A stretch of DNA of 64,000 nucleotides, taken from the NCBI GenBank assembly GCA_963989385.1, contig OZ022509.1, positions 54,293,431-54,357,430 on the forward strand, in the 5' to 3' direction. Positions within the stretch are counted from its first letter, which is position 1; each line of letters begins with the position of its first letter. The position numbers were made by a program, and so were the translations under genes. Below are positions 1,187 to 53,097 of this stretch, in pieces. This stretch comes from Ctena decussata. Taxonomy: Eukaryota > Mollusca > Bivalvia > Lucinida > Lucinidae. The notes below the pieces were generated by a model. The model did not search any database. It was not told the DNA's origin and saw only the letters and a list, made by a program, of their open reading frames with translations.

Positions 1187-1785
1187 CCACAGCACTGTCA
1201 AACCAACTTCGTTGTGATATTTGCGACAAGACGCTGTCATCCAAATCAAATTTGAAACGCCATAAACTTTATCACGAAACGCCACAGTTTTCTTGCGTGG
1301 GCTGCCAGAAATCATTCCACACAGAAGCACACCTGAAGAGGCACAACATCAGTCATACGGGAGACACGAAACACATTTGTCATGTCTGCGGAGCACGGTT
1401 TGTTAATGATTACAATCTCCGTCGCCACAAAGAATGCTTACATCTCCAAAATAGGAAATTTAAGTGTGATATATGTGAAAAGACATTTAAAAGAAAAGAA
1501 AATGTTTCCGCCCACATTTTAACCCATAGTGGGCAAAAGCCGCATAGATGTTCCAAGTGTGGGAAAGGCTTCTGTGTAAAGCGGTATCTAAAGAAACATT
1601 CCTGCAAGAAGGCTCCAGAGTCTCCACCTAAGTGTCAGCTTTGTGGCAAGCTTTTTTCCAAGGCGAAATATCTGAAACAACATTTACTTAAACATGCAGA
1701 GCCCAGTCATCAATGCAACGTATGTGGAAGGCAGTTTACTTGGATGTCTTCGTTGGCAAAACATCTTAAAACCTGTAGGGTGTAA
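1187..1785 (+). CDS. Alternative terminal exon 1: seven C2H2-type zinc fingers
   Basis: Probable sequence-specific DNA-binding end of a nuclear transcription factor. The exon begins after an acceptor with a T-rich tract ending TTTTTCAG at 1186. Two bases (cc) complete a split codon (phase 1), and about 198 further codons run to TAA. Seven finger units start at roughly residues 10, 38, 66, 97, 125, 153 and 180. Units 1-4 and 6 are canonical Cys2His2. Unit 5 has a collapsed His end (KKHSC). Unit 7 ends H-x3-C, a C2HC variant. It carries the most fingers of any exon here, and only weak HTG-type linkers join them, so it is an outlier. A longer frame extends upstream of the acceptor but adds no domain. 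It could be an independent gene's last exon; the shared phase argues that it belongs to the array. Confidence 0.85.
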
Positions 1786-1797
1786 ACAAGATGTTTA

Positions 1798-1987
1798 AAG
1801 CAGACGACAAAATTTGCGTATGCAAAAATTAAAAAAACATCTTGTCCAAATTATTTCATATTGAGAATTCAAAGACTAGAGGGCAAACAGTGTAGATCTA
1901 GATGAGGCAGCTCATTATGAGGCCCCTCATCAAGATCTACGCTGTTTACAAATTCTGCTATTTTCGTCACTGGTGCTTAAAGTGTTA
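1798..1987. repeat. Palindromic MITE-like element, family A
   Basis: Outer arms carry GCAGACGACAAAATTT-type sequence and a terminal TTAA. The core is a near-perfect palindrome (GGCAAACAGTGTAGATC on one side, GATCTACGCTGTTT on the other). Related copies lie at 10.1, 10.8, 12.4, 13.4, 33.4, 33.6, 36.0, 42.3, 43.9, 45.3 and 50.6 kb. No coding capacity. Confidence 0.75.
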
Positions 1988-1999
1988 AAAACTGCTGAC

Positions 2000-2365
2000 A
2001 CTTATAATCTCAAACACTGATATTTCAAAGAACCCTCTTATGTCTAAGAAAAGATGGACACAATTTGTATTTTTCTTAACATTTCCACTTCTATTATCTC
2101 AAACTATGGTATCTCAAAGTAAATTTTCTGAGACCAGAAAATTTACTGTGAGATATCAGTAGTTTGAAATGATCTTCAGCTTTGAAATATTGAGAGCTGA
2201 GTGAAACGAATATAAGTAATTTTCAACTTAGAAATATTGAGAGCTGAGTGAACTGAATATAAGTAATTTTCAACTTAGAAATATTGAGAGCTGAGTGTAC
2301 TGAATATAAGTAATTTTCAACTTAGAAATATTGAGAGCTGAGTGAACTGAATATAAGTAATTTTC
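2000..2365. repeat. Palindrome followed by four tandem 54-bp repeats
   Basis: An inverted-repeat segment (GATATTTCAAAG ... CTGTGAGATATC) resembles the element at 15.49-15.71 kb. It is followed by four near-identical direct repeats of about 54 bp containing GAAATATTGAGAGCTGAGTG. The repeat unit looks like an amplified end of the palindrome. Confidence 0.75.
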
Positions 2366-2410
2366 AAGTTTGATGTAGGGGGAGTAATTTGTACATTGTG
2401 AATTGCTTTT

Positions 2411-3546
2411 TAGCTCGCCTGAACGAAAGTTCAGGAAGAGCTATTGTTGTCACCACGGCGTCCGCGTCAGCGTCCGCGTCAGCGTCGGCGTCCGGATTGG
2501 ATGTTTTGGTTAAAGTTTTTTAAAGACCTATATCTCCCTAACTCATGGATGGATTCTTTTGATACTTGCACTGTAGTTAGATATTGGTCCAAAGTTTAAC
2601 ATGGTACCACCCCCACCCCACTCCTTGACCTTGATGTCAAGGTCATGGACTAACAAAAATTGGGAGTTTTTTAGGACTGGATGTTTTGGTTAAAGTTTTC
2701 TAAAGCCCAGTATCTCCTTAACCCATGGATGGATTCCTTTGATACTTGCACTGTAGTTAGATATTGGTCCGAAGTTTTCCAAGGTACTACCCCCACCCCC
2801 CTCAGTGACCTTGATGTCAAGGTCATGGACTTAGAAAATTGTCTTTTTATTGAGTGGATGTTTTGGTTAAAGTTTTTTAATGACCCATATCTCCTGAACC
2901 CATTGATGAATTCTTTTTATATTTGCACTGTAGTTAGATATTAGTCCAAAGTTTTACAGAGTACTACCCCAGCCCTGCTCGGTGACCTTGATGTTATGGT
3001 CAGGGACTTAGGAAATTTGGTCTTTATTAAAGTTTTCTGATTGCGTACTGATTCATAATGCTTGGCAGAGATTCAGTTTACACCTGAACTGATGTTAGAC
3101 ACTTTTTTGAGTCTTTACAAAACACTATATACTTACCCGACTGGATGACCTTGATGTCAAGGTCATGGACTTTGAGTTTTGTCTTAAAGATTTTGATTAG
3201 TTTTATATTAATGAAGACATAATTTCACAGTGCCACAGTGGACTCAGTTGATACTAATACTTGGACTGATGTTAGATAACGGTTAAAGGCTTTGATACAT
3301 CCTAGCCCTGCCCTCCTCTCCTCCCCCCTACCCCTTAGTTCTTTGACCTCAAGCTCTTGGACTTTGAAATTTCATGTGGATTTTTTTTTTAAGACATTTC
3401 TGAGATAGCTTTTGTTTATAAATGTGTTGTCATTATGGACATGCTTGCCTGAAGTTTTATACATAGCAGTCCACACCACGATAGCGACTGTGTGATGGGC
3501 AAGCATCTATTCAGGCGAGCTATGCTGTCAGGCGACAGCTCTTGTT
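2411..3546 (+). repeat. Mollusc-type TTTTAGCTCGCCTGA repeat with internal 180-bp tandem units
   Basis: It begins TTTTAGCTCGCCTGAACG and closes with an inverted GGCGAGCTAT motif near 3517. Inside are about three clear units (starts near 2498, 2678 and 2856) with the phrase GGATGTTTTGGTTAAAG and a CCTTGATGTCAAGGTCA palindrome, then decayed units. Short versions of the same element lie at 18.66, 34.15 and 51.25 kb. Non-coding; I know this style from bivalve genomes. Confidence 0.8.
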
Positions 3547-4320
3547 TCACTGGAAACAGTGATGTTTTTCTTTTCATTTCACCCATTTTCTGTGTTTCAT
3601 TCAAAATAAACCAGCTAAAGATGTGATTGTTTGGCATTTGTAAGGAAAGTAGATATGAGCAATCTCATGACATTTTGGCTCTTACTGTCCTCCATCAGAT
3701 GATTTTTTGAAGCCAAATTGCAATGTGGAGATTTAAGCCTCGTTTCCATGGGAAAAGTTTCTGTGACAAAGAAGGTTTGGCATAGAAAAAATTGCTCGTG
3801 TAAATGAAAAAAATATGCCAAATTTATATGATAAAGTTTCTATGACAAACAAAATTTGTCCATGTGAACAGAAAATTTGCCATTGAATATGTAACAAAGA
3901 AACTAGCTATGGAGATGAACACAGAAAACTTTGCTCATAATCAAATCAGTTTGATTTTGAACAAAGTATATGTAACAATGAAAATGTGGCATGGTTGGCC
4001 GTTCACACGAGCAAAGTTTGTTTGTCTAGGTAACTTTGACAAGAATTCTTTGTTCATGTATCCATTCATTTATGTGTCTTGTCACAAGACAAGGTGTCTT
4101 ATGGGGTGCACACTCAGATGAACTTACATATCTACCTATTTCTTTGGTTATAGTTTTTTCCCTTTAAGACAATCCCTAAAATCCAGATCTGCCTTATAAG
4201 ATAGGTAGGGGACTGGAAAGCCCCATCTTATCGCAGAATTTTGGAAGACTGTTTTAGATATTTGGGGTCATTCTAGTGAGGGGAAACTCCCATTTTTTAG
4301 CCAAATAAATACAGTTCATA
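3547..4320. other. Non-coding intron or spacer
   Basis: No exon signature was found. About 3690-4060 is a degenerate run of variations on TTTGACAAA / TTTGTTCATG, probably an old repeat. About 4150-4290 is a weak copy of the short palindromic family seen at 63-165. Confidence 0.4.
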
Positions 4321-4560
4321 TGAGCCTTGTCACGAGAAAACCAACAAAGTGTCATGTATGCCCAGCGAAGACTCAGATCAGCCTGGGCAGCCGCTGAGTC
4401 TGATCAGAGTCTTTGCTGTGTACTTAAAGCATAGCTTAGGACCTAAGCTACCTCCATGCCAACAGTGAAGACTCTGATCAGACTGGGTGGATGCCCAGGC
4501 TGTTCTGAGACTTCACAGGGCACTCATGCCACTGCCTTGGTTTTTTCATGTCGGTTCATA
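4321..4560. repeat. Palindromic MITE-like element, family B (about 240 bp)
   Basis: Long terminal inverted repeats: TGAGCC..CACGAGAAAACC on the left and GGTTTTTTCATGTCGG..CA on the right. Internal GATCAGCCTGGGC / GCCCAGGCTG arms are present. It is one of eleven copies in the window (others at 14.2, 15.0, 26.1, 27.3, 28.1, 33.1, 38.4, 46.6, 51.5 and 53.4 kb). Confidence 0.85.
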
Positions 4561-4740
4561 TCTATGTTGTATGTTAAGTATTCCCTTTCGGCAGCAACCG
4601 TACACTGATTCTGGAGAATCGATGCAGCATAAATGGATAGATGGATACTGCATTTATTATGGTTTTTCTCTCCCTCGAATAACCCCAAATATCTAAATTA
4701 GCTCATTATAGTTTTAAGTGTTTTAACTTTTAACTTTCAG

Positions 4741-4982
4741 CTATGGATTTTAATATTTCTGAAACTAATAGAAGACAGACGAGTGTTATATATGGAGGTA
4801 ATGCATATAGAATAGATTCTGTGCTGAAATCAGGTGACATATCTTGGCGATGCACAAAGCAAAAATGCAAAGGGCGACTAAGAACAGATGGTGCCGTGAC
4901 CAAGTTAGTCCCGATAAACATAGAACATAACCACACTGGAAATGAGAAAAAGGCAGAGAAACAGCTGGCTGACGGAAGATAA
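4741..4982 (+). CDS. Alternative terminal exon 2: FLYWCH-type zinc finger
   Basis: The acceptor is AACTTTCAG at 4740. Two bases (ct) complete a split codon, then 79 codons run to TAA. The peptide fits the FLYWCH pattern: F near residue 4, a VIYGGNAY block in the L..G..Y position, then W-R-C near residues 36-38, a second Cys after four more residues (KQKC), and an H-N-H pair near residue 64, before a short basic tail. FLYWCH fingers are DNA- or protein-binding modules best known from the variable ends of the insect chromatin protein Mod(mdg4). It is the only non-C2H2 end in this array, yet it has the same strand, the same splice phase and the same single-exon layout. A methionine follows the acceptor directly, but this is more likely an internal residue of a spliced product. 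Confidence 0.85.
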
Positions 4983-5254
4983 AGGTGCTTATGCGTAACT
5001 GACATGACAATTTATGCACTTTCATGTAAAAAATCTGCACAAAGGTGATTCTGGTCCATGCTTTCATAAACCTCCATAAATTCTGCCATAAGATGTTGTT
5101 TTTTTCCATTCTAAAAACAGTCCTGAAAATCTAGGTCTGTTTCATGAGACTGACCTAGGTGTTTGGCATTGTTTTGGAAGGGAAAAACTTTGATCTTATA
5201 ACGTAAGAAATAAGAGGTTTTGACCAGATGGTATAGCTGCATGCACTTTGACAT

Positions 5255-5705
5255 CTATACATCCATATTTCAATTTTTTAATATCTGTAATTCGATATAA
5301 TAGATATCCAATTATTCATCTTTATTTTCTGATATTCAAAAATTGATTTATGGATATCCAGAAATCAAGTTTTGGATATCTCAGAATCATGATGAAATTG
5401 GCTATGCATAATTTGATTTTTGGCTTTCCAAATATCATGTTATAGATATCCGTAACTCAAACTACAGATGATCAAAAATCAGGTGAACATTGGATATCCA
5501 AAAATTAATTAACTAAAATCAAATTTTGGATATCTGAAAATAAAATCAAACATCAGATAGGTGCTGTTATACTATTTATTCTCTATGAATATCCATATTT
5601 CAATGTTTTAATTTCCAAAAATCAAATCTTGGATATCACCAAATCAAAAAATTGGATTATGGACATCAAAAAAAGGAATGTTAGATATTCAAAAATCCAT
5701 TAGAT
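5255..5705. repeat. Degenerate GGATATCCAAAAATCA-type repeat tract
   Basis: About 20 imperfect occurrences of TGGATATC / GATATCCA joined by A-rich spacers. It behaves like an old short tandem repeat with both orientations mixed. No open frame of note. Confidence 0.6.
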
Positions 5706-6076
5706 TAGAGTCTAAATTGTAGTAACTCAGCCACTGCCAAAATATCTTTAATAAACAGTATTTAAGTGAATGGGTATACTTTGAGAGGAAGGAACTTTTT
5801 TTTAGCATCCCTTCTCAGTAGGAGTGGGGCCAACTCTTAAGTAAAAGAATTTGCTCTTTCCTTTATGAGTAGACCCCATTTCAAAATGCTATCTCAGGCA
5901 GAGAAGCACACAGGAATTCAAGCAAATTAATATAACATTACATGCGGAAAAGAAGAGGGGGTTTGGGGGGACGCGTTTGTTAGAGCTGGGCTGTTAAATA
6001 AGACTTAAACAGTAGTTTTCCATTGGTCTGTATAACATTACATTTCCCATACAGAATGATTTTTGTTTCATTTCAG
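5706..6076. other. Non-coding spacer with palindromic relic
   Basis: About 5760-5900 contains a weak copy of the AAAGGAAAGAATTTGCTC palindrome family, and G-runs occur near 5955. The last 15 bases form the T-rich acceptor tract of the next exon. Confidence 0.4.
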
Positions 6077-6345
6077 ATAACCAGGGCACATTTCAAACAT
6101 CCATATTTGGATTAGCTAGTCAAAGCCTTGGAGGAACAGGATTTACAGAGGATGAATTCATGAAATATCTAAAATTCCGTTGTTCTGTGTGTGACAAGAT
6201 TTTCACATCTAGAAATGCACTTAAGATGCATGAGAATATTCATACAGGAGAGAAACCTTACGCTTGTGATAAAGAGAATTGTGGTGCGAAATTTAACCAT
6301 TCTAGTAATTTGAAGAGACATATGAAAACTGTACATGGCATCTAG
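6077..6345 (+). CDS. Alternative terminal exon 3: two C2H2 fingers
   Basis: The acceptor is TTTCATTTCAG at 6076. The split codon (at) and 88 further codons end in TAG. An acidic and Gly/Ser-rich lead of about 36 residues precedes finger 1 (CSVC ... HENIH) and a TGEKPY linker. Finger 2 has an extended Cys loop (C-x4-C, CDKENC) and ends H-x4-H. Only the part from residue 29 has a methionine in frame, but the frame is open back to the acceptor, which supports splicing rather than an independent start. Probable DNA-binding end of the same transcription factor family. Confidence 0.88.
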
Positions 6346-6356
6346 TATACTAGTTA

Positions 6357-6565
6357 TGAGCCTTATCATGTGATTTTAAACAATGTGGCATTGGTGACAA
6401 GTAAAGGCTCTGATCAGACTGCACTTAAGAGACATCCATGGAATTGGCCCAACCATACAACCAACAGTGAGGCATCTATAAACCTGGGTGTCAAGGATAA
6501 GGATGATCTGAATATCACATGGCAAAACTGCCACATTGTTTGAAATCACATGAGGTGGCTAATAT
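6357..6565. repeat. MITE-like element ATGTGGCATTGGTGACAAGT
   Basis: It has inverted ends around ATCATGTGATTTTAAACAATG and CATTGTTTGAAATCACATGA, and internal CTCTGATCAGACTGCA. A second copy lies at 48.92-49.16 kb, also just outside a zinc-finger exon. Confidence 0.7.
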
Positions 6566-6784
6566 ATGTTTGTAGGCAGGAGAATCGTGATGCTTAAGTT
6601 GCTGTTAAACACTTACATTTAGTGGTTTCTTTCGTGATATTAGTAGTTAAGGCAAAGAGCTGAAAAATATAAGCCTGCTGAGAATTGATTTCCACACAGT
6701 TACATATGCACAGAATAACTGAGGATCAGATAAAAAGGGATTCCTGATGAGAATTTGGGATATTTTCTATACCAGTCCATTAAA

Positions 6785-7005
6785 ACTATACATTGTGGCA
6801 TCCCACTAGAATTGCCTCGATAAGGCAATTCCAGAAGATGCTACCATGTATGGTTTAAAGTGTACATTGTGGCATTCCTCAAAATAGTCTTGATGCGGGG
6901 ATTCTAATAGATGCTACAATGTATGGTTTAAAGTGTACATTGTGGCATTCCTCAAAATAGTCTTGATGCGGCGATTCTAATAGATGCTACAATGTGTATG
7001 GTGTA
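6785..7005. repeat. Three tandem units of about 74-78 bp
   Basis: Units contain ACATTGTGGCATTCC ... GATGCTACAATGTATGG, each itself a palindrome (ACATTGTGGCAT versus ATGCTACAATGT). The second and third are nearly identical. Confidence 0.75.
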
Positions 7006-7261
7006 ATAGAAAAGTAAGAAAAAGTAAAACAAATTTATACCAAATATGCATGTACTGTATTATCTGGAGCCATGGCATATGATGAACACCAAAATTTATC
7101 TTCATCAATATGTCATTGTTCATTAATCGGCAATATTTTAATATTGAAGGTATTAAGTGTTTTGCAGTCAACATTCTAGAAATCTTAGACAGATGAAATC
7201 TGTACATGGCATCGGGTGTACATGGAATAATTTTGTAGATCATTTGATGATTTATTTCAGA

Positions 7262-7620: not shown

Positions 7621-7712
7621 TAATTTTCTGCTGAATACTACATTTATTTGCTATAAGACAGTTTCTGTTCTTCCTCTAAAATAACCCCAAATATCTGAAA
7701 TAGTCTCTCGTA

Positions 7713-8920: not shown

Positions 8921-9129
8921 GGATGTTTGACAAAACAACTGCAGCAAAAGCAAAGAAGATGTGTGTGTGTCCTATCTGTGGGCAGGCGTTTGTCCGACCC
9001 TCGGCTTTACAGATTCATCTTCGGGTCCATTCTGGGGATAAACCATATCAGTGTACAGTCTGCCAGAAAACGTTTTCCCAGAAAAGCAACTTAAAAACTC
9101 ACCTTTTCCGACATTATGCTAATCCATGA
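8921..9129 (+). CDS. Alternative terminal exon 4: two C2H2 fingers
   Basis: The acceptor is GTACTTTTCAG at 8920. A gg split codon (Gly if the donor ends in G) and 68 codons end in TGA. A short basic lead (about 14 residues, AKAKK) precedes finger 1 (CPIC...HLRVH), an SGDKPY linker and finger 2 (CTVC...HLFRH). Both fingers have the full C2H2 spacing and conserved core Phe and Leu. The second-finger helix (SQKSNLKTH) differs from other exons in the array, which suggests a distinct DNA target. The exon ends eight residues or fewer after the last His, as is usual in this set. Confidence 0.88.
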
Positions 9130-10399: not shown

Positions 10400-10611
10400 G
10401 TCTAACTGGTATGGAAGATGGTGTAAAGAAGAAAATATATTCTTGCCGTTTTTGTACAAAGAGTTTTACAAAGCCATCTCTTGTTTTACGACATGAAAGA
10501 ATTCATACTGGAGAGAAGCCGTTTACTTGCGAACTCTGCGGAAAATGTTTTGCCACAAAAGATGGAATGAAGTCACATCAGGTGACGCATATAAATAGGA
10601 TTAGTTTCTGA
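10400..10611 (+). CDS. Alternative terminal exon 5: two C2H2 fingers
   Basis: The acceptor is TCATTACAG at 10399. The gt split codon (Gly after a G donor) and 69 codons end in TGA. A 15-residue lead with KKK precedes finger 1 (CRFC...HERIH), an HTGEKPF linker and finger 2 (CELC...HQVTH). Helix residues of finger 2 (ATKDGMKSH) are shared with exon 7 at 16.5 kb, and finger 1 (PSLVLRH) is also shared, so exons 5 and 7 are recent relatives. The product would be a DNA-binding isoform end in the nucleus. Confidence 0.9.
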
Positions 10612-13602: not shown

Positions 13603-13892
13603 ATTCATATTCACTGGTCAGGAATGAAGACGGGTTTTACAGCTGTCGATTTTGCCAGAAGAAGTTCTGTGCCCCGTCACTCACGTTACGTCACGAGAGA
13701 ATCCATACGGGAGAGAGGCCATTCAGTTGTGAATTTTGTAATAAGACGTTTAACGATCCATCAGCCTTGCGTAGGCATCGCAGGCTTCATACAACTGAGG
13801 CACCAAACCAACATTGTGGAATCTGCGGCAAAGAATTCTTTACTAAAGCTGAGCTTAAGATGCACTTTAAAACGCATCTAAACATATCCTGA
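13603..13892 (+). CDS. Alternative terminal exon 6: three C2H2 fingers
   Basis: The acceptor is TTTCCTTACAG at 13602. The at split codon and 95 codons end in TGA. A lead of about 13 residues precedes finger 1 (CRFC...HERIH), an HTGERPF linker, finger 2 (CEFC...HRRLH), a six-residue non-standard spacer (TTEAPN), and finger 3 (CGIC...HFKTH). Finger 1 shares the APSL(T/V)LRH helix with exons 5 and 7. A long overlapping open frame in another register is a shadow. The segment from finger 2 onward is duplicated immediately downstream as a broken copy. Confidence 0.9.
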
Positions 13893-13980
13893 AAGTTAAA
13901 GTTTTTAAAAGGTGTGACTTGCAGGTCTTAGAAAAATCCAAATTTGGGGTGAAAATGTTTTACCCTATATAGTTTGTTGT

Positions 13981-14121
13981 AAGGATCCATTAGCCTTGTG
14001 GAGGCATCGCAGGCTTCATACAACTGAGGCGCCAAATCAACATTGTGGAATTTGTGGCAAAGAATTCTTTACTAAAGCTGAGCTTAAGATGCACTTAGGA
14101 ACACATCTAAACGTATCATGA
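13981..14121 (+). pseudogene. Broken tandem copy of exon 6 3' half
   Basis: The sequence matches exon 6 from the GATCCATCAGCCTTG stretch of finger 2 to the stop codon. Nearly all of finger 3 is intact, but finger 1, the first half of finger 2 and any acceptor are missing. The homology continues into the 3' flank (AAAAGGTGTGRCT), so the duplicated unit spans about 230 bp. Confidence 0.85.
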
Positions 14122-16551: not shown

Positions 16552-16769
16552 ATATACCTGTGCAACAACCACAAGAAGTAGATAGTACAGACAATAAACA
16601 TGCCTGCCGTTTTTGTTCGAAGAAGTTCAAAGCACCGTCACTAGTACTACGACATGAGAGAATTCATACAGGGGAAAAACCTTACTCTTGTAGTATCTGT
16701 GGACGGCGGTTTAACACCAAAGATGGCATGAAGTCTCACCAGATCACTCATATGAACATGAGTTTTTAG
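16552..16769 (+). CDS. Alternative terminal exon 7: two C2H2 fingers
   Basis: The acceptor is CTCCTTTCAG at 16551. The at split codon and 71 codons end in TAG. A 17-residue polar lead ([11 protein letters not shown]) precedes finger 1 (CRFC...HERIH), HTGEKPY and finger 2 (CSIC...HQITH). Fingers closely match exon 5; finger 1 differs at helix position -1 (A here, K there), while finger 2 contacts are the same. Such a pair would be expected to bind overlapping targets. An in-frame ATG just upstream lies inside the pyrimidine-rich intron end and is unlikely to be used. Confidence 0.9.
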
Positions 16770-23648: not shown

Positions 23649-23881
23649 ACAGTGTAAATCCTGCCCAAATACACAAGAGGGAGATAAATTTCCGAGTCTA
23701 CAATTGTTCCTACTGCGACAAGAAGTTCGACCGACAAGATCATGTGATCAGGCATGAACGAAGTCACACTGGCGAGAGACCTTTTCTGTGTTCAACATGT
23801 GGGAAAGGATTTAAACGAAAAGACGCTTTAAAAAGTCACCTGATCACTCACATGGACAAGAATTTCTTCAAATTGTCTTAG
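23649..23881 (+). CDS. Alternative terminal exon 8: two C2H2 fingers
   Basis: The acceptor is ATCATTGTAG at 23648 (a TAG rather than CAG acceptor). The ac split codon and 76 codons end in TAG. A 20-residue lead with basic residues precedes finger 1 (CSYC...HERSH), HTGERPF and finger 2 (CSTC...HLITH). A seven-residue tail (KNFFKLS) extends past the last His. Finger 1 helix (DRQDHVIRH) is unlike its neighbours; finger 2 (KRKDALKSH) is a relative of exons 5 and 7. A weaker pyrimidine tract suggests lower or regulated use, which is inference. Confidence 0.87.
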
Positions 23882-25731: not shown

Positions 25732-25928
25732 GTGAGAAAAACCTCAAAAAAGCAAAGATGAAGTTTGAGTGTGATGTTTGTAATAGGGGGTGTGCTGGAC
25801 CAGCTGACCTTGCTAGACACATTAAAACACATACTGGAGAGAAGCCATATGTTTGTGTTACCTGTGGGAGGAGATTTGCTTCTGCATCAGGCATGAAATA
25901 CCACCAGATAAGGCATTTCAGCACCTGA
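25732..25928 (+). CDS. Alternative terminal exon 9: two C2H2 fingers
   Basis: The acceptor is CCATTTTGCAG at 25731. The gt split codon and 64 codons end in TGA. After a ten-residue lysine-rich lead, finger 1 (CDVC...HIKTH) has Cys where the core Phe normally sits (CNRGCAG), HTGEKPY links it, and finger 2 is CVTC...HQIRH. The first methionine is ten residues in, leaving under 60 residues from an ATG, so length-filtered gene calls would miss it. It is the shortest C2H2 end in the array. Three decayed copies of its finger 2 follow within 1.5 kb. Confidence 0.87.
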
Positions 25929-28890: not shown

Positions 28891-29120
28891 GTGAGACAGA
28901 AATGAGGGAAATAGAAATGAGGGGAATACCCATATGGAGAACACGGGTTAAAAGGAACAGAACTTGTGGATTCTGTGGAAAACAGTTTATCGCCCCTTCC
29001 CACCTTGTGAGACACGAGAGAATCCACACTGGTGAAAAACCTTTTATCTGCGATTTTTGTGGTAGACTATTCAGTGACAGTTCTACCCTACGGAAACATA
29101 GACAAAGACATCTTCGCTGA
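28891..29120 (+). CDS. Alternative terminal exon 10: two C2H2 fingers
   Basis: The acceptor is TTTAATTTCAG at 28890. The gt split codon and 75 codons end in TGA. A 25-residue lead, rich in Arg and Glu (EMREIEMRG, RTRVKRNR), precedes finger 1 (CGFC...HERIH), HTGEKPF and finger 2 (CDFC...HRQRH). The peptide stops two residues after the last His. The Arg-rich lead could add backbone contacts or a nuclear signal, which is inference. The region just after the stop is an expanded array of decayed finger tails. Confidence 0.9.
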
Positions 29121-32754: not shown

Positions 32755-33095
32755 GTTCTGTGGCAACAAAACCAGGCAAGTGCAAAAGAAAGAAGACAGC
32801 ATGCGCTTTTTGTGGGAAACTGTTTGAAAGAGCAAAACTCCTTGTCATACATGAAAGACGGCATACTGGGGAAAGGCCCCTCAGTTGTGAATTTTGTGGG
32901 GACAGATTCGGGGATCCTGCAGCTCTTCACAGACATCGATTCATTCATACCAGTGAAGAATCATTCTCATGTGATTCTTGTGGGAAAAAATATTCGAGGA
33001 AAGATTCTGTGGTTAGACATATCAAAACCCATCATAGGAAGGAAATAAAGCTCATAAAAACAAAGAAAATACGGAAAATTAGTGATTTGGGTTGA
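32755..33095 (+). CDS. Alternative terminal exon 11: three C2H2 fingers
   Basis: The acceptor is TTTTTCGTTACAG at 32754. The gt split codon and 112 codons end in TGA. A basic lead (KCKRKK) precedes finger 1 (CAFC...HERRH), HTGERPL, finger 2 (CEFC...HRFIH), a seven-residue spacer (TSEESFS) and finger 3 (CDSC...HIKTHH). A strongly basic tail of about 22 residues follows (KEIKLIKTKKIRK). The three-finger plan with a non-TGE second linker is shared with exon 6, suggesting common origin. A 117-codon frame in another register is a shadow. Confidence 0.9.
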
Positions 33096-34479: not shown

Positions 34480-34685
34480 GACCAAAGAGATGCCAATATT
34501 GTCCAAAATCATTTAAGGACCTGTGGCACTTGAAACGACACGAGAGAATGCATACTGGTGAAAAGCCTTATGGCTGCGACATCTGTGGGAGAACGTTCGG
34601 CGATCAGTCATATGCTAAGAAGCATCAGCGGAGACACCTAAGAGTTTTCAGGATCCAGTCAAGAGTTGAAATAAACCCAAGATAG
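34480..34685 (+). CDS. Alternative terminal exon 12: two C2H2 fingers
   Basis: The acceptor is CCCTTTTCAATTGTAG at 34479. The ga split codon and 67 codons end in TAG. The lead is only three residues (PKR) before finger 1 (CQYC...HERMH), HTGEKPY and finger 2 (CDIC...HQRRH), with a 17-residue basic tail. Finger 1 (KDLWHLKRH) has Trp at helix position 2, shared only with exon 13 (SSMWHMKRH), so those two exons form a subfamily. No methionine occurs before residue 26 (the M of HERMH), so an ATG-based search does not find this exon. The exon's second finger and 3' flank are repeated four more times downstream. Confidence 0.9.
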
Positions 34686-34734: not shown

Positions 34735-35468
34735 TTTTTTTTGAAAAGCTTTATTGGGAGAACATTCGGTGAGCAGCAATATGCTTAGAAGCATCAGTGA
34801 AGACACCTTAGAGATTTTGGAGTTTTTAAGATACAATCAGACTTTAAATAAAACCAAGATAGGCATTTCATACTTAACAGGTGTCGCCCAGTCAATAAAG
34901 TTGCAAATGAGTTTTTTTTTAAAAGCCTTATGGTTACAACGTTTGTGGGAGAACGTTCAGTGATCAGCAATATTTTAAGAAGCATCAGCGAAGACACCTT
35001 AGAGATTTTGGAGTTTTTAAGATACAATCAGACTTTAAATAAAACCAAGATAGGCATTTCATACTTAACAGGTGTCATCCAGTCATTAAAGTTCCAAAGG
35101 ATTTTATTCGAAAAGCCTTATGGTTGGGACATTTGTGGGAGAATGTTCGATGATCAGCAATATGCTAAGAAGCATCAGCGAAGACACCTAAGAGTTTTCA
35201 GGATCCAGTCAAGAGTTAAAATAAACCCAAGATAGGCATTTTATACTTAACATGTGTCACCCAGTCATTAAAATTGCAGATAATTTTTTTTTTATATAAA
35301 AGCCTTATTGGGAGAATGTTCAGTGATTAGCAATATTTTAAGAAGCATCAGCAAAGACACCTTAGAGATTTTGGAGTTTTTAAGATACAATCAGACTTTA
35401 TAAACCCAAGATAGGCATTTTGTAGTCATGTGTCACCCAGTCATTAAAGTTGTAAATGAGTTTTATAA
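34735..35468 (+). pseudogene. Four tandem decayed copies of exon 12 second finger
   Basis: Units of about 180 bp start near 34735, 34919, 35106 and 35293. Each has AAAAGCCTTATGG-, GGGAGAACGTTC-, CAATATGCTAAGAAGCATCA- and AAGATAGGCATTTCATAC-like phrases. The third (35110-35232) keeps an almost whole finger frame, but its first Cys codon reads TGG (Trp). The others have frameshifts. None has the first finger or an acceptor. The last unit folds back on an inverted copy at 35470-35510. Confidence 0.9.
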
Positions 35469-38855: not shown

Positions 38856-39058
38856 TAAAGGAACCCAAAAGATGCCGCTATTGTCAGAAAGCATTTTCTT
38901 CAATGTGGCACATGAAACGACACGAGAGAATTCATACTGGTGAAAAACCTTTTTCCTGTGATATCTGTGGGAAACAGTTTAGTGATCAACAAAATGCCAA
39001 AATACACAAGATTACTCACTACAAAGATGGCCGCGGCGGATTATTTCAGAATATATAG
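38856..39058 (+). CDS. Alternative terminal exon 13: two C2H2 fingers
   Basis: The acceptor is TATCGTTGCAG at 38855. The ta split codon and 66 codons end in TAG. A four-residue lead precedes finger 1 (CRYC...HERIH), HTGEKPF and finger 2 (CDIC...HKITH), then a 12-residue tail (KDGRGGLFQNI). The Trp-His helix of finger 1 ties it to exon 12. The tail codons are the seed of a 49-bp minisatellite that starts at the stop codon. Its acceptor has a short pyrimidine tract. Confidence 0.9.
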
Positions 39059-41884: not shown

Positions 41885-42276
41885 GTACAAACATACCCTA
41901 TGCAACAGCAGAGGCACCTCAGCAGAGTGTAAGAATATCAACCCTAACTCATGCAAGTGATCTACAACAAATAAATGGAGACAATAGATCCCGCAAAGTG
42001 GCACCTGGAGAATTAGCAAACTCAGGCCGGTTTCCGAATTCTAGGTCACCAAAAGTTTTACAAAGCAAGGCAGTTACGAGACCAATGTACTTTTGTGATG
42101 TGTGTGGGAAAGGGTTCCCATACCCTTCAAATCTAGAAATTCACAAGAGAATTCATACTGGGCTCAAACCTTTTGCTTGTGAATTTTGTGACAAACGGTG
42201 CACTACAAGGTCAAACCTCCAGTCTCATGTAGTGCACAATCATTTGAAAGATAGACAAGAGGATAGTAACTGTTGA
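41885..42276 (+). CDS. Alternative terminal exon 14: long lead and two C2H2 fingers
   Basis: The acceptor is TTTTTTCAG at 41884. The gt split codon and 129 codons end in TGA. A polar, probably disordered lead of about 70 residues starts TNIPYATAEAPQQ. Finger 1 is CDVC...HKRIH, the linker is TGLKPF, and finger 2 is CEFC...H-x4-H with Cys instead of the core Phe (CDKRC). First of five related exons (14-18). The start TNIPYA is shared with exon 16. The first in-frame start-like codon is a GTG deep inside the lead; the open frame from the acceptor is the better model. Confidence 0.9.
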
Positions 42277-43491: not shown

Positions 43492-43499
43492 CTACTCAT

Positions 43500-43997: not shown

Positions 43998-44347
43998 GTA
44001 CAATAGTGGCATCTCAACAGGATGTAGGAATATCAACCATTAATCATCCAAGTGGTTTACAGAATTTAAATCAAGACTATAGACCTGGGAGGGTAACGCA
44101 TGGAGACTCGTCAAACACAGGCCAGTTTACCAGCATTAGACCAACAATGTTGAACACCATGAGGGGATCAGCAGGAACATGCTTTTGTGATATCTGCGGA
44201 AAGGGGTTCCCATATCCTTCAAATCTTGAGGTTCACAAGAGAATTCACACTGGAGTTAAACCATTTGCGTGTAAACTATGTGATAAACGATGTACAACTA
44301 AGTCAAATCTCAAGTCCCATGTACTATACAACCATTATAAAGAGTAA
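43998..44347 (+). CDS. Alternative terminal exon 15: long lead and two C2H2 fingers
   Basis: The acceptor is TTTATTTTCAG at 43997. The gt split codon and 115 codons end in TAA. A lead of about 58 polar residues contains [11 protein letters not shown]. Fingers are CDIC...[11 protein letters not shown], and CKLC...H-x4-H with CDKRC. Nearest relative is exon 16 (lead motif DVGIS[TA]IN, YKE or IKS tail). Finger 1 helix is PYPSNLEVH, one conservative change from exon 14; finger 2 helix TTKSNLKSH is shared with exons 16 and 17. Confidence 0.9.
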
Positions 44348-45757: not shown

Positions 45758-45776
45758 ACAGCTACTTTATTTTCAG

Positions 45777-46156
45777 GTACAAACATACCATATGCAGTAT
45801 TGGTAGCAGCCCAGCACGATGTAGGAATATCAGCCATTAATAGCCAAAATAATCTTCTGGAACTAAGTCAAGACTATAGCTCTTCTACAGAAACACCTGG
45901 AGAATCGACAATCACTGACCGGTTTCCGGAGCCTAGACTGCCGACAGTGTTGAAAACTATGAGGAGAAGAGGAGGAACATGCTATTGTGATATATGTGGG
46001 AAAGGGTTCGGGTATCCACACAATCTTGTGGTGCACCAGAGAATTCACACCGGGGTCAAACCATTTGCGTGTAAATTTTGTGACAAACGATGTACAACTA
46101 AATCAAATCTCAAGTCCCATGTACTGTACAATCATATAAAGAGTAATAACTATTGA
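45777..46156 (+). CDS. Alternative terminal exon 16: long lead and two C2H2 fingers
   Basis: The acceptor is TTTATTTTCAG at 45776. The gt split codon and 125 codons end in TGA. The lead of about 68 residues begins TNIPYA (as exon 14) and continues with QHDVGISAIN (as exon 15). Fingers: CDIC...HQRIH with helix GYPHNLVVH, TGVKPF, CKFC...H-x4-H with CDKRC. The finger 1 changes S to H at helix position 2 and E to V at position 5. The lead's final MRRRGG is basic. Most similar to exon 15 overall. Confidence 0.9.
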
Positions 46157-47272
46157 GTATTTGGGTGAATGGGTGCAATTTTTAGGGGAGGCAACTATGC
46201 AATTTTCATTTTACCTCCCTTCTCAATTGGGGATCAACCCTAAAAGAAAAGAAGTTGATGTAAATGCAATTAAGAGTAGCTCCCAATGAGTTGGGAGTTG
46301 TAGCACAACTCCCACCTTATTGGGGTCTACTCTTAAAGAGTTTCTTCCCCTAGGGAGCAAATTTTTTCCTTTAAGAGTAGCCCCTAGTTCCTAAGCAATA
46401 AAGTTAGCACTGTTGAAGAAAACAGTAAATACAACTTTTGAATCAATAACATGACTATGGAAAACTGTAAAATGTCAGGGAAAAATTAGGGAAAGTCAGG
46501 TAATTTTGAAGTGGAGGATAAGACTTACTAATAGTGGCAACCCACCTTAAGTGACCTAGGGGAATTAAAAGCACTTGATCTAGAACTGAAAAGAAGTCTT
46601 GACAATTTGAGCCGCGACACGAGAAAACCAACAATGTGGTTGTGCGCCCAGCACAGACTCAGATCAGCCTGGGCATCTGCCCAGTCTGATCAGACTCTTT
46701 GCTTAGCACTTAAAGGGTAGCTAAGGGTCTAATCTACCTCCATGCCGACAGCGAAGTCTCTGATCAGACTGGGCGAATGCCCAGTCTGATCTGAGTCTGC
46801 GCTGGGCGCACAACCACACTGTTGGTTTTGTTGTGTCGTGGCTGATTTAATTGTGATTAGGATAGAGAGTCGAAATTCAGACTTATGACCTGTGTATTTC
46901 AAACCTGTCATTTGTTTGTTGAATAATTTGTCCTTTTTTCACTGTTTGGAAGACACACATATTATATGATATGAAATAAATAAATGAAATAGAAATGAAA
47001 TAGAGGATGTTAAATTTTAACTGAATATGGACTCTAATACTGGCTGTTCAAAGTTGATGAAGAGTAGATATATACAAATTTCGTCTTATTTTGCTCAGTT
47101 CCTTGATTTCATATTTGACAGTAATGGGGTTGTGGGGGATGGGGAGATGGTGGTTAGCCTGTCTTGAGGTCATGGTCACAGAGGTGGCACAGGTTTCCCT
47201 ACCTATGCTTTCAACTGAGCCAGTCAGTTACCACATGTGTAAGAGTGGCTGATTAGCCAGATTTTTTATTAT
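46157..47272. other. Spacer with palindromes and one family B MITE
   Basis: 46190-46390 holds nested AAAGAAAAGAAG / CTTAAAGAGTTTCTTCCCC hairpins and an ACTCCCAATGAGTTGGGAGT turn. The family B copy is 46608-46844 (TGAGCCGCGACACGAG ... TTGTGTCGTGGCTGA). The rest is plain. Confidence 0.6.
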
Positions 47273-48450
47273 GCCCCCGAAGGAACTTCGGGTGGCATAT
47301 TAAAATCGCACCGTCCGTCCGTCCGTCCGTCTGTCAGTCCGTCCGTCCGTTACAAATCGTGTCTCAGCGATAACTTTAAAACCACTGAAGCAAATTTGAT
47401 GAAACTTCACAGAAAGATAAAGCATGATGCGAAGGTGTGTCGCGCGCAAGACTTAGGTCCCTACGCCCAAGGTCAAGGCCACAGTTGGGTCAAAGGTCAA
47501 ATTGGGTCTCAAAATCGTGTCTCAGCAACAATTTTAAAACCACTCAAGCAAATTTGCTGAAACTTAACAGAAAGATAAAGTATACTGAGAAAGTGTGTCG
47601 CGCGGAAGACTTAGGTCCCTACGCCCAAGGTCAAGGTCACAATTGGGTCAAAGGTCAAATTGTGTCTCAAAATCATGTCTCAGCAATAATTTTAAAACTA
47701 CTGAAGCAAATTTGCTGAAACTTCACAGAAAGATACAGCATAATTAGAAGGTGTGTCACGCACAAGACTTAAGTCCCTACGCCCAAGGTCAAGGCCAGTT
47801 GGGTCAAAAGTCAAATTGTGTCTAAAAATTGGCTCTCAGTGATTACTTATAAACTACTGAAGCAAATTTGATGAAACTCCACAGAAAGATGAAACATAAT
47901 GAGAAGTTGTGTTGCACATCACATTTGGGTTGCCAGGTTCAAGGTCAAGGTCACAATTGGGGGTCAAAGGTCAAATCTTGCCTCTATGATAGCTTAAAAC
48001 CTGCTGAAGCTAATGTCATCAAATTTCACAGAAAGGTAAACCATAATGAGAAGGTATGTTACACACAATTTTTATGATCCCAAATCCAAGGTCAAGGTCA
48101 CAATCTGGGGTCAGAGGTCAATTCATGTCTCGGCAATTACTCAGAAAAGTACCAAAGCAAACTTTAAAGAAAGATAAAGCCTAATGAGATAATTTACCAT
48201 GCACAAGACATAGATTCCCACACACAAGGTCAAGGTCATAGCCTGAGGTCAAAGGTCAAGTCATTCATCCTCAGTTACCTAAAAACTTCTGAAGTAAACT
48301 TCATTTAACATCATGAAAAGGTAAACCAAAATGAGAATGTATATCATGTGCTAGACTCAGGTTCTATGCCCAAGGTCAAGGTCACAACTAGGGCTCAAAG
48401 GTCAGTTTAAGGGGCCTTCGGGGGCATTTGTTACACACTGTAACATTTCT
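47273..48450 (+). repeat. ATGCCCCCGAAGG element with 160-bp tandem units
   Basis: Left end ATGCCCCCGAAGG-AACTTCGGG, right end CCTTCGGGGGCAT near 48414-48426. A CCGT simple repeat follows the left end. Then come some six diverged units of about 150-165 bp with CCCAAGGTCAAGGTCACAA, GGTCAAAGGTCAAAT and GAAACTTCACAGAAAGATAA. Non-coding; the open frames ride on the tandem units. Confidence 0.85.
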
Positions 48451-48454
48451 TGTT

Positions 48455-48722
48455 TTTGGTTGATTTGATGCTTAACGTCCACGGTAAACAACTAAGGTTA
48501 TGTCGGGATGGTCAGTTAACCTAACCACACTATTCCTGGGCAGGCTTAGACCTCCTAAGCGGTTAACCAGTACTAAGTGCACATACTTTCGCCAGTAACT
48601 GACAACTGCCCTTCTTGAATCAGCGGAAGGAGAAACAAAAGTATGTGGCCAGACCGGGATTCGAACCCAGGACCCCTGACTTACGAGTCAGGTGCCCTAC
48701 CGATTGTGCTACCCGGCCCGGT
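48455..48722 (-). repeat. tRNA-derived SINE, minus strand
   Basis: On the minus strand it starts GGGCCGGGTAGCACAATCGG (A-box region) and has an exact B-box GGTTCGAATCC. The would-be anticodon arm CTGAC/GTCAG has a six-base loop, so it is not a functional tRNA. A body with GTATTACTGGTTAACCGC-like sequence follows. Confidence 0.8.
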
Positions 48723-48921
48723 GATTAGCCAGAGGGTTGACAGCAGATGTTCATTATCAACATCATCAGCTTACCTATATGGGTGTGGTATTGACCAAAT
48801 TCTTAGTCATTGGCCACTTTGCACAGTACCAGGAGGGTTGATTTTACCCTTGTGGTGCTTGGAATGCCACATGACTACGAGTAAGGTTTTGTTGTCGCCA
48901 CCACTGCATTGGTGGTATTAG

Positions 48922-49163
48922 ATGAGCCACATCATGTGATTTCCAACAATGTGGCATTGGTGACAAGTGAAGGCTCTGATCAGACTGCACATAAGTGTAG
49001 TCTGATCAGGACCTTTGCTTGTCACATCAGCCATCTAAGAAAGTGGCCCAAGCCGTAGAGCCAACAGTGAGGTCTCTGATTACCTTGTCTAAAAGAGAGG
49101 GATGATCTGAATATCACATGACAAAATTGCCATATTGTTGGAAGTCATATGACGTAGCTCAAT
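48922..49163. repeat. MITE-like element, second copy
   Basis: Sister of 6357-6565: ATGAGCCACATCATGTGATT at the left, AGTCATATGACGTAGCTCA at the right, core CTGATCAGACTGCACATAAG and inverse. Confidence 0.8.
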
Positions 49164-49278
49164 TACTGTCATGTGCTTGTATTTTTGCCATGACTATTCA
49201 CTGTGAATAATGCTAATTCATTGTCATTGTCACTAACCACTTAAGTCTGCTTTTGCAAAATGGTTTATTGTGTTTCAG

Positions 49279-49682
49279 GTGGGAGTAATCAGCATGCAAA
49301 ATTTATACCAGTTCATCAGGGAGTTATTGTAGAAATATCAAGTATCAACAATACAGCCAGTGATCAGAAAGATGTACCACTTAAGTTAAAAGCTTGAGAG
49401 TCATCTAAAAGAGAATGTTTTCCCAATATGATGTCATCAACAGTGGATATGATGTCATCCACACAAGATATGATGCCATTAACAAAGCCCCCAAATGGGA
49501 GAGGGCCAGTTCCTTTTTGTGATATTTGTAGAAAGAGCTTCTCATTTCCATCATATCTAGAAAGACATATGAGAATCCACACTGGGGTCAAACCATTTGC
49601 TTGTGAATTTTGTGATAAACGATGCACAACAAAGTCAAATCTCAAGTCACATATAATTTGCAGTCATTGTAAAGATAAATAA
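49279..49682 (+). CDS. Alternative terminal exon 17: finger exon interrupted by in-frame stop
   Basis: The acceptor is TTGTGTTTCAG at 49278 with a gt split codon. The phase-1 frame encodes 38 residues (GSNQHAKFIPVHQGV...) and then meets TGA at 49395-49397. The same frame reopens, and from ATG at 49428 encodes three MMxxT-type repeats, finger 1 (CDIC...HMRIH), TGVKPF and finger 2 (CEFC...H-x4-H, CDKRC), ending at TAA. Fingers are intact and close to exon 18. Either the exon now makes a finger-less isoform, or another acceptor is used (an AG at 49398 would restore the frame but lacks a good pyrimidine tract), or readthrough occurs. The parallel stop in exon 18 argues against a random error. Confidence 0.75.
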
Positions 49683-51542
49683 GTGTTATACTGAAGGTGA
49701 ATGATGGAACAACTCTGTCATCTTAATTTTTGCCTCCCATTTCTGTGGGAGGTCAACTCTTAAAGGAAAGAATTCGTTACTCTGGGGCAAATTCTTTCCT
49801 TTTATTAGAAAGGAACCCTTTTAGGAACAGTTTCATCATACAAGAAAGCAAAAAGGGGAAATTACAAAAGTTGTACCCCCCCCCCCCCCCCCCCCCCCCC
49901 CACACACACACACCTTTGAAAAAGTGGTGGAAAAACATAACACCTTGTAGTGTATGAATACACTGCCAAGAGAGATCACTCTGACATGCAAGTATTTTTC
50001 CCATTTTTCATGGGGAGCTTATCTTAAAGGACAGAATTTGCTCTCTAGAAGGTATAAACTTTACCCTTGAAGGTGAATGGGTGCTTTTAGAGGGGAAGCA
50101 ACATTGCATATTTCATTGATGCCAGCTTCTCCATGGGGGTCAGCTCTTAAAGGAAAAAAATTTCCTTCTCTAGGAGCAAATTTTTTTCCTTTAAGAGTTG
50201 ACCCCCTTTATGGAACAGTTGTCATCCAGGGAAGCAAACTGGAAAACATTAACATCAAAGCTGCTCTCCCTTTGAAAAAATGTGAAAACATGAAAGTGTA
50301 TGCCTTAAGAGTAGCCCCAATTGATAGATAAATAACTTGAGATTTTACCTCCTGTTTAATAGCATTTCAGTCATATCAGGTTAGGTGATAGTTAAAGACT
50401 ACATAAAATGTATAACCCTATTATGGTGGGAAAGAATTCTGCCTCCAGCTGGATTTGAACCAGGGACAGCTAGATCTGTAGGCCAGCGCTTCACCCAATG
50501 AGCTGTAGGGGCTCCTATTCCCAACTGAAGGGATTCATATGACAGGGAAGCAAATAGTACTTTGTTGAAAAATGTCTCAGTTCCTAAAGTGGCAGCTTAA
50601 CACTAAGCACCAGTGACAAAAATAACATAATTTGCAAACAGCATAGATCCTGATGAGGCAGCTCATAATGAGCCGCCTCATCTAGATCTACACTGTTTGC
50701 CCTCTAGTCTTTGAACTCTCAATATGAAATGTTTTGGACAAGGCATTTTTTTAATTTTTGCAGACGTAAATTTTGTCGTCTGCTTTTTGGTGCTTAAAGA
50801 GTTAAGCTATGAATGTGTAGCCATAGACTGCATGTAATAATAGATGTGCCTTCTTGAGTGTTAGTGTTAGAAGTGTTAGTTATAGTTACTGTAACCGACC
50901 CTTGTAGCGCACAGGGCGCTAACGTTTTCAAAATGGTGGCAAATACTTGTAGTAAGTTTTCTCTTTTATAAGTGCACATTTCAAAGAGTTTTTATATTTT
51001 TAGGGAAACAATTTTAAAGGCTAAGCATATGAGAAAAGCTGCTTATGGTCACAGAAAGATAGAGAAGCTTTACTAAAATGAAAAATGAAAGATTCTGTAG
51101 CATTTTACAGCTCTTGTATACTAGCAAAAAAAAGGCAAAAACTGATGAAAATATGTGCGCTTATAGTCATATGCCTTATAAATTACCATGATGTGCACTT
51201 ATGGGCATGTGCGATTATTGGGTCGAATACGGTATCCAATTAAAAGAATTTATTTTAGCTCGCCTGAGTGAAGTTCAGGAAGAGCTATTGTACTATCCCT
51301 GGCATCGGCGTCGGCGGCGGCATTAGCAAAATGTTTAAGTTTTACGTTACAGTTTTTCAGGTGATGGGCAAGGCGCCGTCAGGCGAGCTATCCTGTCCCA
51401 CTGACAGGTCTTTTTTCCCTTCCAAAACAATCCCAAAGACCTAGATCTGTCTTGTAAGACAGATCTAGCTCTGTGGGATTGTTTTGGAGAAAAGAAAGGC
51501 ATTTTATCACTGAATTACACAAGACTGACGTACATATTAAAG
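49683..51542. other. Spacer dominated by repeats
   Basis: AAAGGAAAGAATTCGTTAC hairpin (49760-49802), poly-C/(CA)n (49877-49912), AAAGGAAAAAAATTTCC hairpin (50145-50195), and a minus-strand SINE (about 50325-50514, A- and B-box decayed). A family A element follows (50600-50806), then the short TTTTAGCTCGCCTGA repeat (51254-51413) and a family C palindrome (51411-51500). No exon. Confidence 0.7.
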
Positions 51543-51735
51543 AGCTGCAACACGACAAACATAACAAAGTGGCATGTGCCCAGCCAAGACTCAGATCAGA
51601 TCGCTGTTTGCATGGAACTAGCTTAGACCTAAGCTACATAAAGCGCATAGTAAACTCTCGTCAGACTGGGCAGCTGATTTATATCTTTGCTGGGCCCACA
51701 TGCCACTTTGTTGGTTTTGTTGTGGCATTGCTCAT
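51543..51735. repeat. Family B MITE, shortened
   Basis: GCAACACGACAAACATAAC at the left and TTGGTTTTGTTGTGGCA at the right; the middle is reduced. Confidence 0.75.
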
Positions 51736-52449
51736 TTGTATAGTTTTGGAATGCTTTACTTTCTTCTTATAACCAAATAAATAGTGTGCGTTCCCCTTCT
51801 TTTCTGATAAGATATTTGATTGTGTGGTAAACAATTCTGTTTTGGGTGTAGCCCCTTATTCCTTCATCTGTCAAGGACCAGAGCCAGAGCTTTCTTAAGA
51901 GAATGCATTTTATATACCATATTAATCCATATAAATGCCCCTGCTCTTATAAATACCCCTGTCTCTTTTCTGAGCTGGTTAAAATCACCTTAGGTGTATG
52001 GGTATACTTCCATTTTTTTCTATCAATTGTACAGAAAAACAACTTTCATGAATTCTTGTTTGCCTCTCTGGAGGACATTGTTCTTCCTAAAAGGGTCTTC
52101 TTTATAAGGAATGAATTGGCATTTGCTCCTAAAGGAGCAAATTCTTTCCAGTAAGAGTTAACCCCTATTGAGAACAGAGGCAAAAACATGAAAAAAAAGA
52201 ATTGCTTCCACTGGAGGAATATCTGTTCTCCTTAATACTGTTTTATTAGAAGTACTTTTGCAGTGGCCAATTTACTACTCTTTAGGCTCTAAATGATGCC
52301 CCCCTTAGGTAAAGTGCAATGCCCCAGAGCGTTTAATAGGACTTATACAGCTATATTTACACCTCTATATTTTTGTACCATTTTATCAAAGTGAACAATT
52401 TTTGGACTTCCTGTTTGCTTCCTGGATAACGTAGTACTGTCAAAACTGG

Positions 52450-52575
52450 ACATGTTGCAGAGGGGAGGTGGGTGGGTGGGTGTGTATGTGAGTGTGTGTG
52501 TGTGTGTGTGTGTGGGGGGGGGGTAATGTAGTACTGTCAAAACTAGAATGTTGCATGCAGAGGGGGGGGGGGACA
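52450..52575. repeat. GGTGGG/(GT)n/G-run microsatellite
   Basis: (GGTG)n, then (TG)n and two G-runs, flanked by a direct repeat of TAGTACTGTCAAAACT. Histidine/threonine-rich minus frames are artefacts. Confidence 0.9.
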
Positions 52576-52670
52576 AAACTGAAAATGGCAGAGTTGCTTC
52601 CCTTCAAAGTGTACTGAATTACCTTAAGTCTGCTTTTGTACAACATGACAGGGTTGATATTTTTTTGCAG

Positions 52671-53097
52671 GTGGGAATAGTCAGCATGCAAAATTAATAC
52701 CAGTTTATCAGGGAGTTATTGTAGAAATACCAAGTTTCCACACACCCAATGATCAAGATCTACCATTTAAGCAATGACAAGAGAGTCATCTAAAAGGGAT
52801 ATGATGTCATCAACACCAGATATGATGTCACCAACACCAAATATGATGTCATCAGCAGTGGATATGATGTCACCAACACTAGATATGATGCTATTAACAA
52901 AGCCCCCAAACCTGATGCCACAAGTTCATTTCTGTGATGTTTGTAGAAAAGGCTTTCCCAGCCCATCACATCTAGAAATACACAAGAGAAGTCATACTGG
53001 GGTGAAACCATATGCTTGTGAATTTTGTGATAAACGATGTACAGCTAAGTCAAATCTCAAGTCACATAGATTTCACAGTCATTCTAAAAATAACTAA
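52671..53097 (+). CDS. Alternative terminal exon 18: lead frame and finger frame overlap at ATGA
   Basis: The acceptor is TTTTTTTGCAG at 52670 with a gt split codon. The phase-1 frame gives 35 residues (GNSQHAKLIPVYQGV...), clearly homologous to the exon 17 lead, and ends at TGA 52775-52777. The finger frame begins with ATG 52774-52776, so stop and start share ATGA, and the finger frame is shifted by one. It encodes five heptad-like MMSxTxx repeats, finger 1 (CDVC...HKRSH) and finger 2 (CEFC...H-x4-H, CDKRC), ending at TAA. An AG at 52770-52771 would put the fingers in the array's phase 1, but with a poor tract. Reinitiation is another possibility. Last finger exon in the window. Confidence 0.75.

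Follow-up and report, generated by a model that had tools for sequence, protein, structure and literature searches.

A candidate long zinc-finger gene with about forty alternative ends behind a shared head in the bivalve Ctena decussata

Does a long row of short zinc-finger exons on one strand represent many small genes or the interchangeable ends of a single gene? The question is raised by a window of 64,000 nucleotides from the lucinid bivalve Ctena decussata (C12:54293431-54357430, in a genome of 1.66 Gb; the window is the whole stretch of DNA that was analysed). Open reading frames (ORFs) on its + strand include 18 that bear C2H2 fingers, the first at 1132-1785 and the last at 52771-53097. 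Coordinate 0 is the base preceding window base 1 and negative coordinates lie left of the window. Taken together, the evidence makes it very probable that these exons belong to one long + strand gene in which shared exons are joined to one of about 40 same-phase ends, in the manner of lola and mod(mdg4) of insects. A first-pass annotation had read the locus as lola/mod(mdg4)-like, with upstream shared exons in which a BTB domain was to be sought; the array of same-phase alternative ends stands, but no BTB domain was found, and the locus is one of eight clustered genes rather than a solitary one.

Reading phase is a shared property of the window exons. A simple consensus matrix, made for the analysis and not trained on the C. 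decussata genome, was used to score splice acceptors. The best acceptor leaves two bases ahead of the first codon in 18/18 window finger ORFs, with scores of at least 2 in 16/18, which bears out the earlier count of 18 same-phase finger exons on the + strand. From the donor of the third shared exon to +114 kb, the two-base phase is found in 35/37 finger ORFs (the exceptions are -11963 and 73442); control non-finger ORFs of similar length have no preference among phases 0/1/2 (38/55/43 on the + strand and 46/44/46 on the - strand). Acceptors on the + strand that score at least 4 and open at least 60 codons number 31 in the array phase (26 with C2H2 fingers), compared to 9 (1) and 8 (3) in the other two phases. 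Odds of 1 in 3^15 had been attached to this agreement, which is too generous because independence is assumed for exons that descend from one another. Neighbouring exons are more alike than in shuffled order (0.595 versus 0.475, p = 1e-4, 30 exons), and phase alone is weaker evidence than those odds imply because tandem duplicates inherit their phase. The further evidence, from shared exons, relatives, strand layout and selection, does not rest on it. Fifteen of the 18 exons are intact and three are decayed, one by truncation and two by stops before the fingers. As had been recognized, 16 of the 18 read straight into the fingers, with the exons at 49398 and 52771 meeting a stop first, and an early ATG is lacking in several: 8/16 in-window exons examined have none before the first finger, as do 14/32 exons over the readable array. 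The original inventory of finger exons was correct for the + strand but overlooked a FLYWCH exon and the fact that the array extends to the left and right of the window. FLYWCH has 36 genome-wide matches, two of which lie on the + strand within the array (the second at +124 kb), compared to a chance expectation of 0.004 for the span.

Shared exons had been predicted off the left edge of the window, with an upstream phase-1 donor as the feature to look for, and both were found. Three exons occupy the interval from -46.1 to -34.8 kb (Table 1). The first intron is in phase 0. The second intron and the one that follows exon 3 are both in phase 1, and the donor of the latter (-34768) closes exon 3 as A|GTAAGT. 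The three exons encode an N-terminal domain of ~82 residues followed by a linker, and within 264 kb around the window the head exons match at two genes only. A BTB head was rejected after local and genome-wide searches. No BTB match better than E 1.6 occurs in frames of at least 20 codons over the same 264 kb, and the nearest among 124 genome-wide matches (best 150 of 192 candidates scored) lies 3.6 Mb from the locus on its chromosome. BTB was also not found among the Pfam entries of listed relatives or in Pfam scans of four head-bearing relatives, and those four scans contain no KRAB. No BTB was detected in the three shared exons. The ~82-residue domain has no convincing Pfam match, and its exon-2 part, with 52 profile positions only, has no PDB sequence match (best E 0.93). 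Two AlphaFold models are too weak over the head to name a fold (block predicted local distance difference test, pLDDT, 43-87 and 48-87), and structure comparisons of AlphaFold models matched fingers only, the best rows including two-finger domains of SALL4/SALL3 bound to DNA. The head is apparently an undescribed domain without a Pfam match.

Beyond the window, the array spans ~174 kb, with the gene reaching ~+162 kb and finger exons lying ~23 to 197 kb from the donor. There are 41 candidate ends: 32 were read directly (31 intact C2H2 and one FLYWCH, with an acceptor score of at least 2 required for the C2H2 ends and the relic at 13918 left out) and nine were recognized by match (eight C2H2 and one FLYWCH). 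Beyond the part that was read, exon numbers are minima; the genome finger search used one finger pair as query, scored the best 150 of 7103 candidates, and gives matches that are not one-to-one with exons. Head exon 2 has 38 genome-wide matches, down to 43% identity, and each of the 20 best combines an open frame with an AG acceptor and with a GT donor no more than 4 bases from the match end. Eight head genes are clustered in C12:53.11-54.88 Mb. All 89 finger matches listed in or beside this cluster are 3' of a head gene and on its strand, and 45/45 listed in one-strand-only intervals are on the expected strand. Among the matches listed, strand switches once per tail-to-tail interval, and none lies between head-to-head genes. 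Linker-exon matches occur on the same strand as the head exon in 14/14 cases, 1.3-11.7 kb 3' of it; a linker match is missing for 54624703, a member of the cluster of eight. On the - strand, a divergently oriented sister gene also carries all three shared exons, at C12:54155669-54169044 (window coordinates -137762 to -124386), and finger matches listed on its strand run leftward to C12:53849777. An identical 52-residue exon 2 is present in C12:54584597(-), 53110003(+), 54882472(+) and 54250257(+), where the 30 upstream bases differ, so that either recent conversion or very strong constraint may be responsible.

Relatives in other bivalves indicate how the ends would be used. A protein search with exon 3 returned 85 proteins, including single-locus isoforms in Ruditapes, Mercenaria and Mya. 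A total of 191 relative proteins were gathered, 130 with the head and 61 without it, the latter being mainly linker-only frames. Isoform sets account for 115/130 head proteins, in 19 sets whose members are identical over their first 289-396 residues; identity stops exactly at GY in 17/19 sets, at SY in one and at GYN in one. Each of these 115 members has an end of its own, and 113 of the ends have C2H2 fingers. When the SY set is left out, an ANN codon could specify the residue that follows GY in 112/112 readable cases, which is what the A| donor of C. decussata demands. Set counts vary with the head motif used, from 15 sets with 85 proteins for the narrow motif through 16 with 102 to 19 with 115 for the widest motif (used here), and all are alike in kind. 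Fifteen head proteins fall outside the sets, and 11 of the 14 inspected, four of them from Mactra, have GY followed by an ANN-codable residue. Six archive contigs of 1.2-1.9 kb (P0045, P0049, P0126, P0130, P0144 and P0185) carry head, linker and tail in one frame, with two fingers in four contigs, one in P0130 and a cut-off finger in P0126. They are best read as spliced transcripts because they are too short for introns, given that the head exons by themselves span 11 kb in C. decussata.

In the best 120 of 220 head matches, which were those examined, all relatives that name an organism are heterodont bivalves (Mercenaria, Ruditapes, Mya, Mactra and Dreissena); other phyla may be among the remaining 100. 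The C. decussata locus has the features of this heterodont family, namely the IPGYKVILK...FCLK domain, the EITGVEPG linker, the GY junction and a switched end. Mercenaria LOC123540335, Ruditapes LOC132744376, Mya LOC128205483 and the RefSeq isoforms of Dreissena and Mactra are like it in head, linker, junction and switched ends and, judged by these shared sequences, belong to the same gene family. Many RefSeq isoforms take their names from the fingers ("sal-like", "zinc finger and BTB", "early growth response"), which hides the common system, and their ends are not clear orthologues of those in C. decussata. In isoform X1 of Dreissena polymorpha LOC127864620 (P0142), the head is joined to CENP-B/Tc5-type transposase DNA-binding domains without fingers, perhaps a captured mobile-element domain serving as an alternative end. 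A 2130-base archive contig (P0191), found with a divergent head-exon query, has a divergent head, a long linker and five C2H2 fingers, which is perhaps the conventional ancestral layout of the family.

Selection on the ends was assessed from the ratio of non-synonymous to synonymous substitution rates (dN/dS) in 11 close exon pairs, which share members and hence are not independent. Finger dN/dS is 0.07-0.23 in 9/11 pairs; the other two have a value of 0.51 (34449/38777) and saturated dS (10342/16509). In the nine pairs whose linkers hold over 20 synonymous sites, linker dN/dS is 0.30-0.95 and always above the finger value; in the two pairs with short linkers it is 1.48 and 0. Low finger values in close pairs mark the fingers as functional coding sequence, and by this measure they are under purifying selection. 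Contact residues are slightly more variable than other positions (3.0 versus 2.67 bits in 67 fingers), and 31/32 contact-residue sets differ. None of 169 foreign-isoform ends, cut by a crude rule, proved a clear one-to-one orthologue of a C. decussata end (best rows have 36-63% identity, mostly in the fingers); 133 of these ends start with an ANN-codable residue and 36 with G or D, which are taken as cuts at an earlier DY or GY. On these comparisons the head is conserved and the tails are turning over, because head exon 2 is 80-93% identical to five of six relatives and there are no clear one-to-one ends abroad. The linker exon has 36-90% identity to relatives. A large, duplicating, clustered repertoire without clear end orthologues and with divergent contact sets could also be a fast-evolving genome-defence system like the vertebrate KRAB zinc-finger genes, with ends that chase mobile elements. 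We consider this unlikely: recently duplicated exons show strong purifying selection on their fingers and relaxation in their linkers, contact positions are barely more variable than others, and two fingers per end are short for sequence targeting.

In the alternative-end gene that we favour, three upstream exons would supply the N-terminal domain and the linker, with the linker exon closing on the codon base A. Its donor would be spliced to one of about forty terminal exons, a use to which the relatives point, and each terminal exon would carry a separate acceptor, two bases ahead of its first codon, a stop and fingers, in most cases two C2H2 and seldom FLYWCH. Each transcript would then encode a transcription factor with a constant head and a differing DNA-binding tail. 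Since two fingers recognise only about six base pairs and so specify few bases, the shared head most likely dimerises or oligomerises, or recruits partners. Local tandem duplication would give rise to ends, which purifying selection on their fingers would retain and which would occasionally decay. The most likely mode is ordinary alternative splicing of terminal exons in cis, because all listed finger matches are on the strand of the head gene. The nearest functional analogues use trans-splicing (PMC12692577, PMC11426971), in which, as in mod(mdg4), head and tail transcripts from separate promoters are joined later; same-phase acceptors are equally compatible with it, and the long distances between donor and ends favour it. 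It is nevertheless quite unlikely here: mod(mdg4) has exons on both strands (PMC12692577), in contrast to the complete strand concordance of the 89 listed matches, which is expected for cis splicing although not decisive.

Several observations weigh against a single gene with same-phase ends. The best acceptor of exon -11963 is out of phase, with a weaker in-phase acceptor at -11956. Acceptor phase was read in one of the eight clustered arrays, up to +114 kb, which covers 32 of its 41 candidate ends. Poly(A) signals occur within 300 bases behind the stops in 19/37 cases, compared to 40% at random positions, an enrichment so weak that it was not used. Three head proteins outside the isoform sets (P0045, P0088 and P0145) have no GY junction. 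The relative isoforms are mostly automatic database models and come from other bivalves.

Whether the alternative-end plan is an ancient animal feature or an independent invention had been left as an either/or, of which only the second part now finds favour. Shared descent with insect lola and mod(mdg4) would explain the same architecture, including FLYWCH ends in the array, but it is very unlikely: the heads look unrelated and no BTB was found, TTK-type BTB was sought and reportedly not found in Mollusca (PMC11426971), and the organism-naming relatives listed are all heterodont. The plan was therefore probably invented independently. That the array is instead a tandem row of separate short zinc-finger genes, with private 5' exons for each, is most improbable: zinc-finger genes are commonly found in tandem clusters, and elsewhere in this genome finger matches do lie within long open frames like those of conventional genes, but many exons here have no ATG before the first finger, head exons are restricted to two genes in 264 kb, foreign isoforms carry an identical head, and strands are concordant.

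Table 1. Shared head exons and terminal exons of the candidate gene in and left of the window.
Feature	Positions	Strand	Remarks
Shared exon 1	-46051..-45962	+	Located through N-termini of relative proteins
Shared exon 2	-43173..-43017	+	Located through N-termini of relative proteins
Shared exon 3 (linker), 951 bases	-35719..-34769	+	Starts with two bases, ends GGA TAC A|GTAAGT
Alternative end exon, C2H2	1187..1785	+	6 matched fingers; second same-phase acceptor at 1193
Alternative end exon, FLYWCH	4741..4982	+	Pfam PF04500 E 4.4e-10; same-phase acceptor score 3.0
Alternative end exon, 2 C2H2 fingers	6077..6345	+	
Alternative end exon, 2 C2H2 fingers	8921..9129	+	
Alternative end exon, 2 C2H2 fingers	10400..10611	+	
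Alternative end exon, 3 C2H2 fingers	13603..13892	+	
Truncated relic copy of 13603 exon	13973..14121	+	ORF 13918-14121
Alternative end exon, 2 C2H2 fingers	16552..16769	+	
Alternative end exon, 2 C2H2 fingers	23649..23881	+	
Alternative end exon, 2 C2H2 fingers	25732..25928	+	
Alternative end exon, 2 C2H2 fingers	28891..29120	+	
Alternative end exon, 3 C2H2 fingers	32755..33095	+	
Alternative end exon, 2 C2H2 fingers	34480..34685	+	
Degenerate copy of 34480 exon	34852..35235	+	Finger matches split across two frames
Alternative end exon, 2 C2H2 fingers	38856..39058	+	
Alternative end exon, 2 C2H2 fingers	41885..42276	+	
Alternative end exon, 2 C2H2 fingers	43998..44347	+	
Alternative end exon, 2 C2H2 fingers	45777..46156	+	
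Relic end exon (finger ORF at 49398)	49279..49682	+	Recognisable acceptor 49279; stop 39 codons on, before fingers
Relic end exon (finger ORF at 52771)	52671..53097	+	Recognisable acceptor 52671; stop 35 codons on, before fingers

Two other kinds of element occur in the window. A retroelement between two end exons extends from 59376 to 64000 and on to ~+65.5 kb; in it a PNMA/gag-type frame (PF14893) precedes a pol-like one. Two matches that resemble transfer RNA (tRNA) lie on the - strand at 48646-48718 and 50440-50512, and may be tRNA-derived short repeats rather than working tRNA genes.

Alternative DNA-binding ends behind a shared head are known mainly from insect BTB genes. Here a further phylum would have the same plan, built on a different head, present in several clustered genes and with a splice junction conserved across five heterodont genera. 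No published description of the system was found in the openly licensed literature, a scope outside which most subscription journals and all preprints lie. Comparison between the two groups would make testable why alternative-end architecture evolves, and a large transcription-factor repertoire that misleading names had hidden in databases is exposed. The family could be read as variable-end transcription factors, with C2H2, FLYWCH and, in Dreissena, CENP-B/Tc5 transposase domains as ends, and with eight head genes in 1.8 Mb. There is an even chance, in our judgement, that the bivalve lineage invented such factors at many loci independently of insects, with up to 38 head genes and about a hundred ends in the cluster, as a combinatorial cell-identity code larger than that of lola in fly neurons.

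Comparison with known systems places the locus near lola and mod(mdg4) in layout: it has the common-phase array of terminal exons and the C2H2/FLYWCH ends, and no TTK-type BTB head was detected. Unlike the KRAB zinc-finger genes, it has no KRAB that could be found, mostly two-finger ends, and finger dN/dS below 0.25 in most close pairs. In Drosophila mod(mdg4), common 5' exons are joined to one of more than 30 alternative 3' exons and end exons are tandemly duplicated (PMC12692577, PMC4667647), FLYWCH ends occur in 26/31 isoforms (PMC4667647), the head is BTB, and all mRNAs are trans-spliced from exons on both strands (PMC12692577, PMC4667647). The C. decussata locus is like mod(mdg4) in its shared 5' exons, end array, FLYWCH end and tandem duplication of end exons, but differs in its non-BTB head, mostly C2H2 ends, restriction to one strand and eight clustered loci. 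In Drosophila lola, a common head is followed by alternative ends, 17/20 of which have C2H2 fingers, and the head is a TTK-type BTB, an arthropod-specific domain (PMC11426971). Compared to lola, the C. decussata array has about twice as many candidate ends, a different head, and membership of a multi-gene family.

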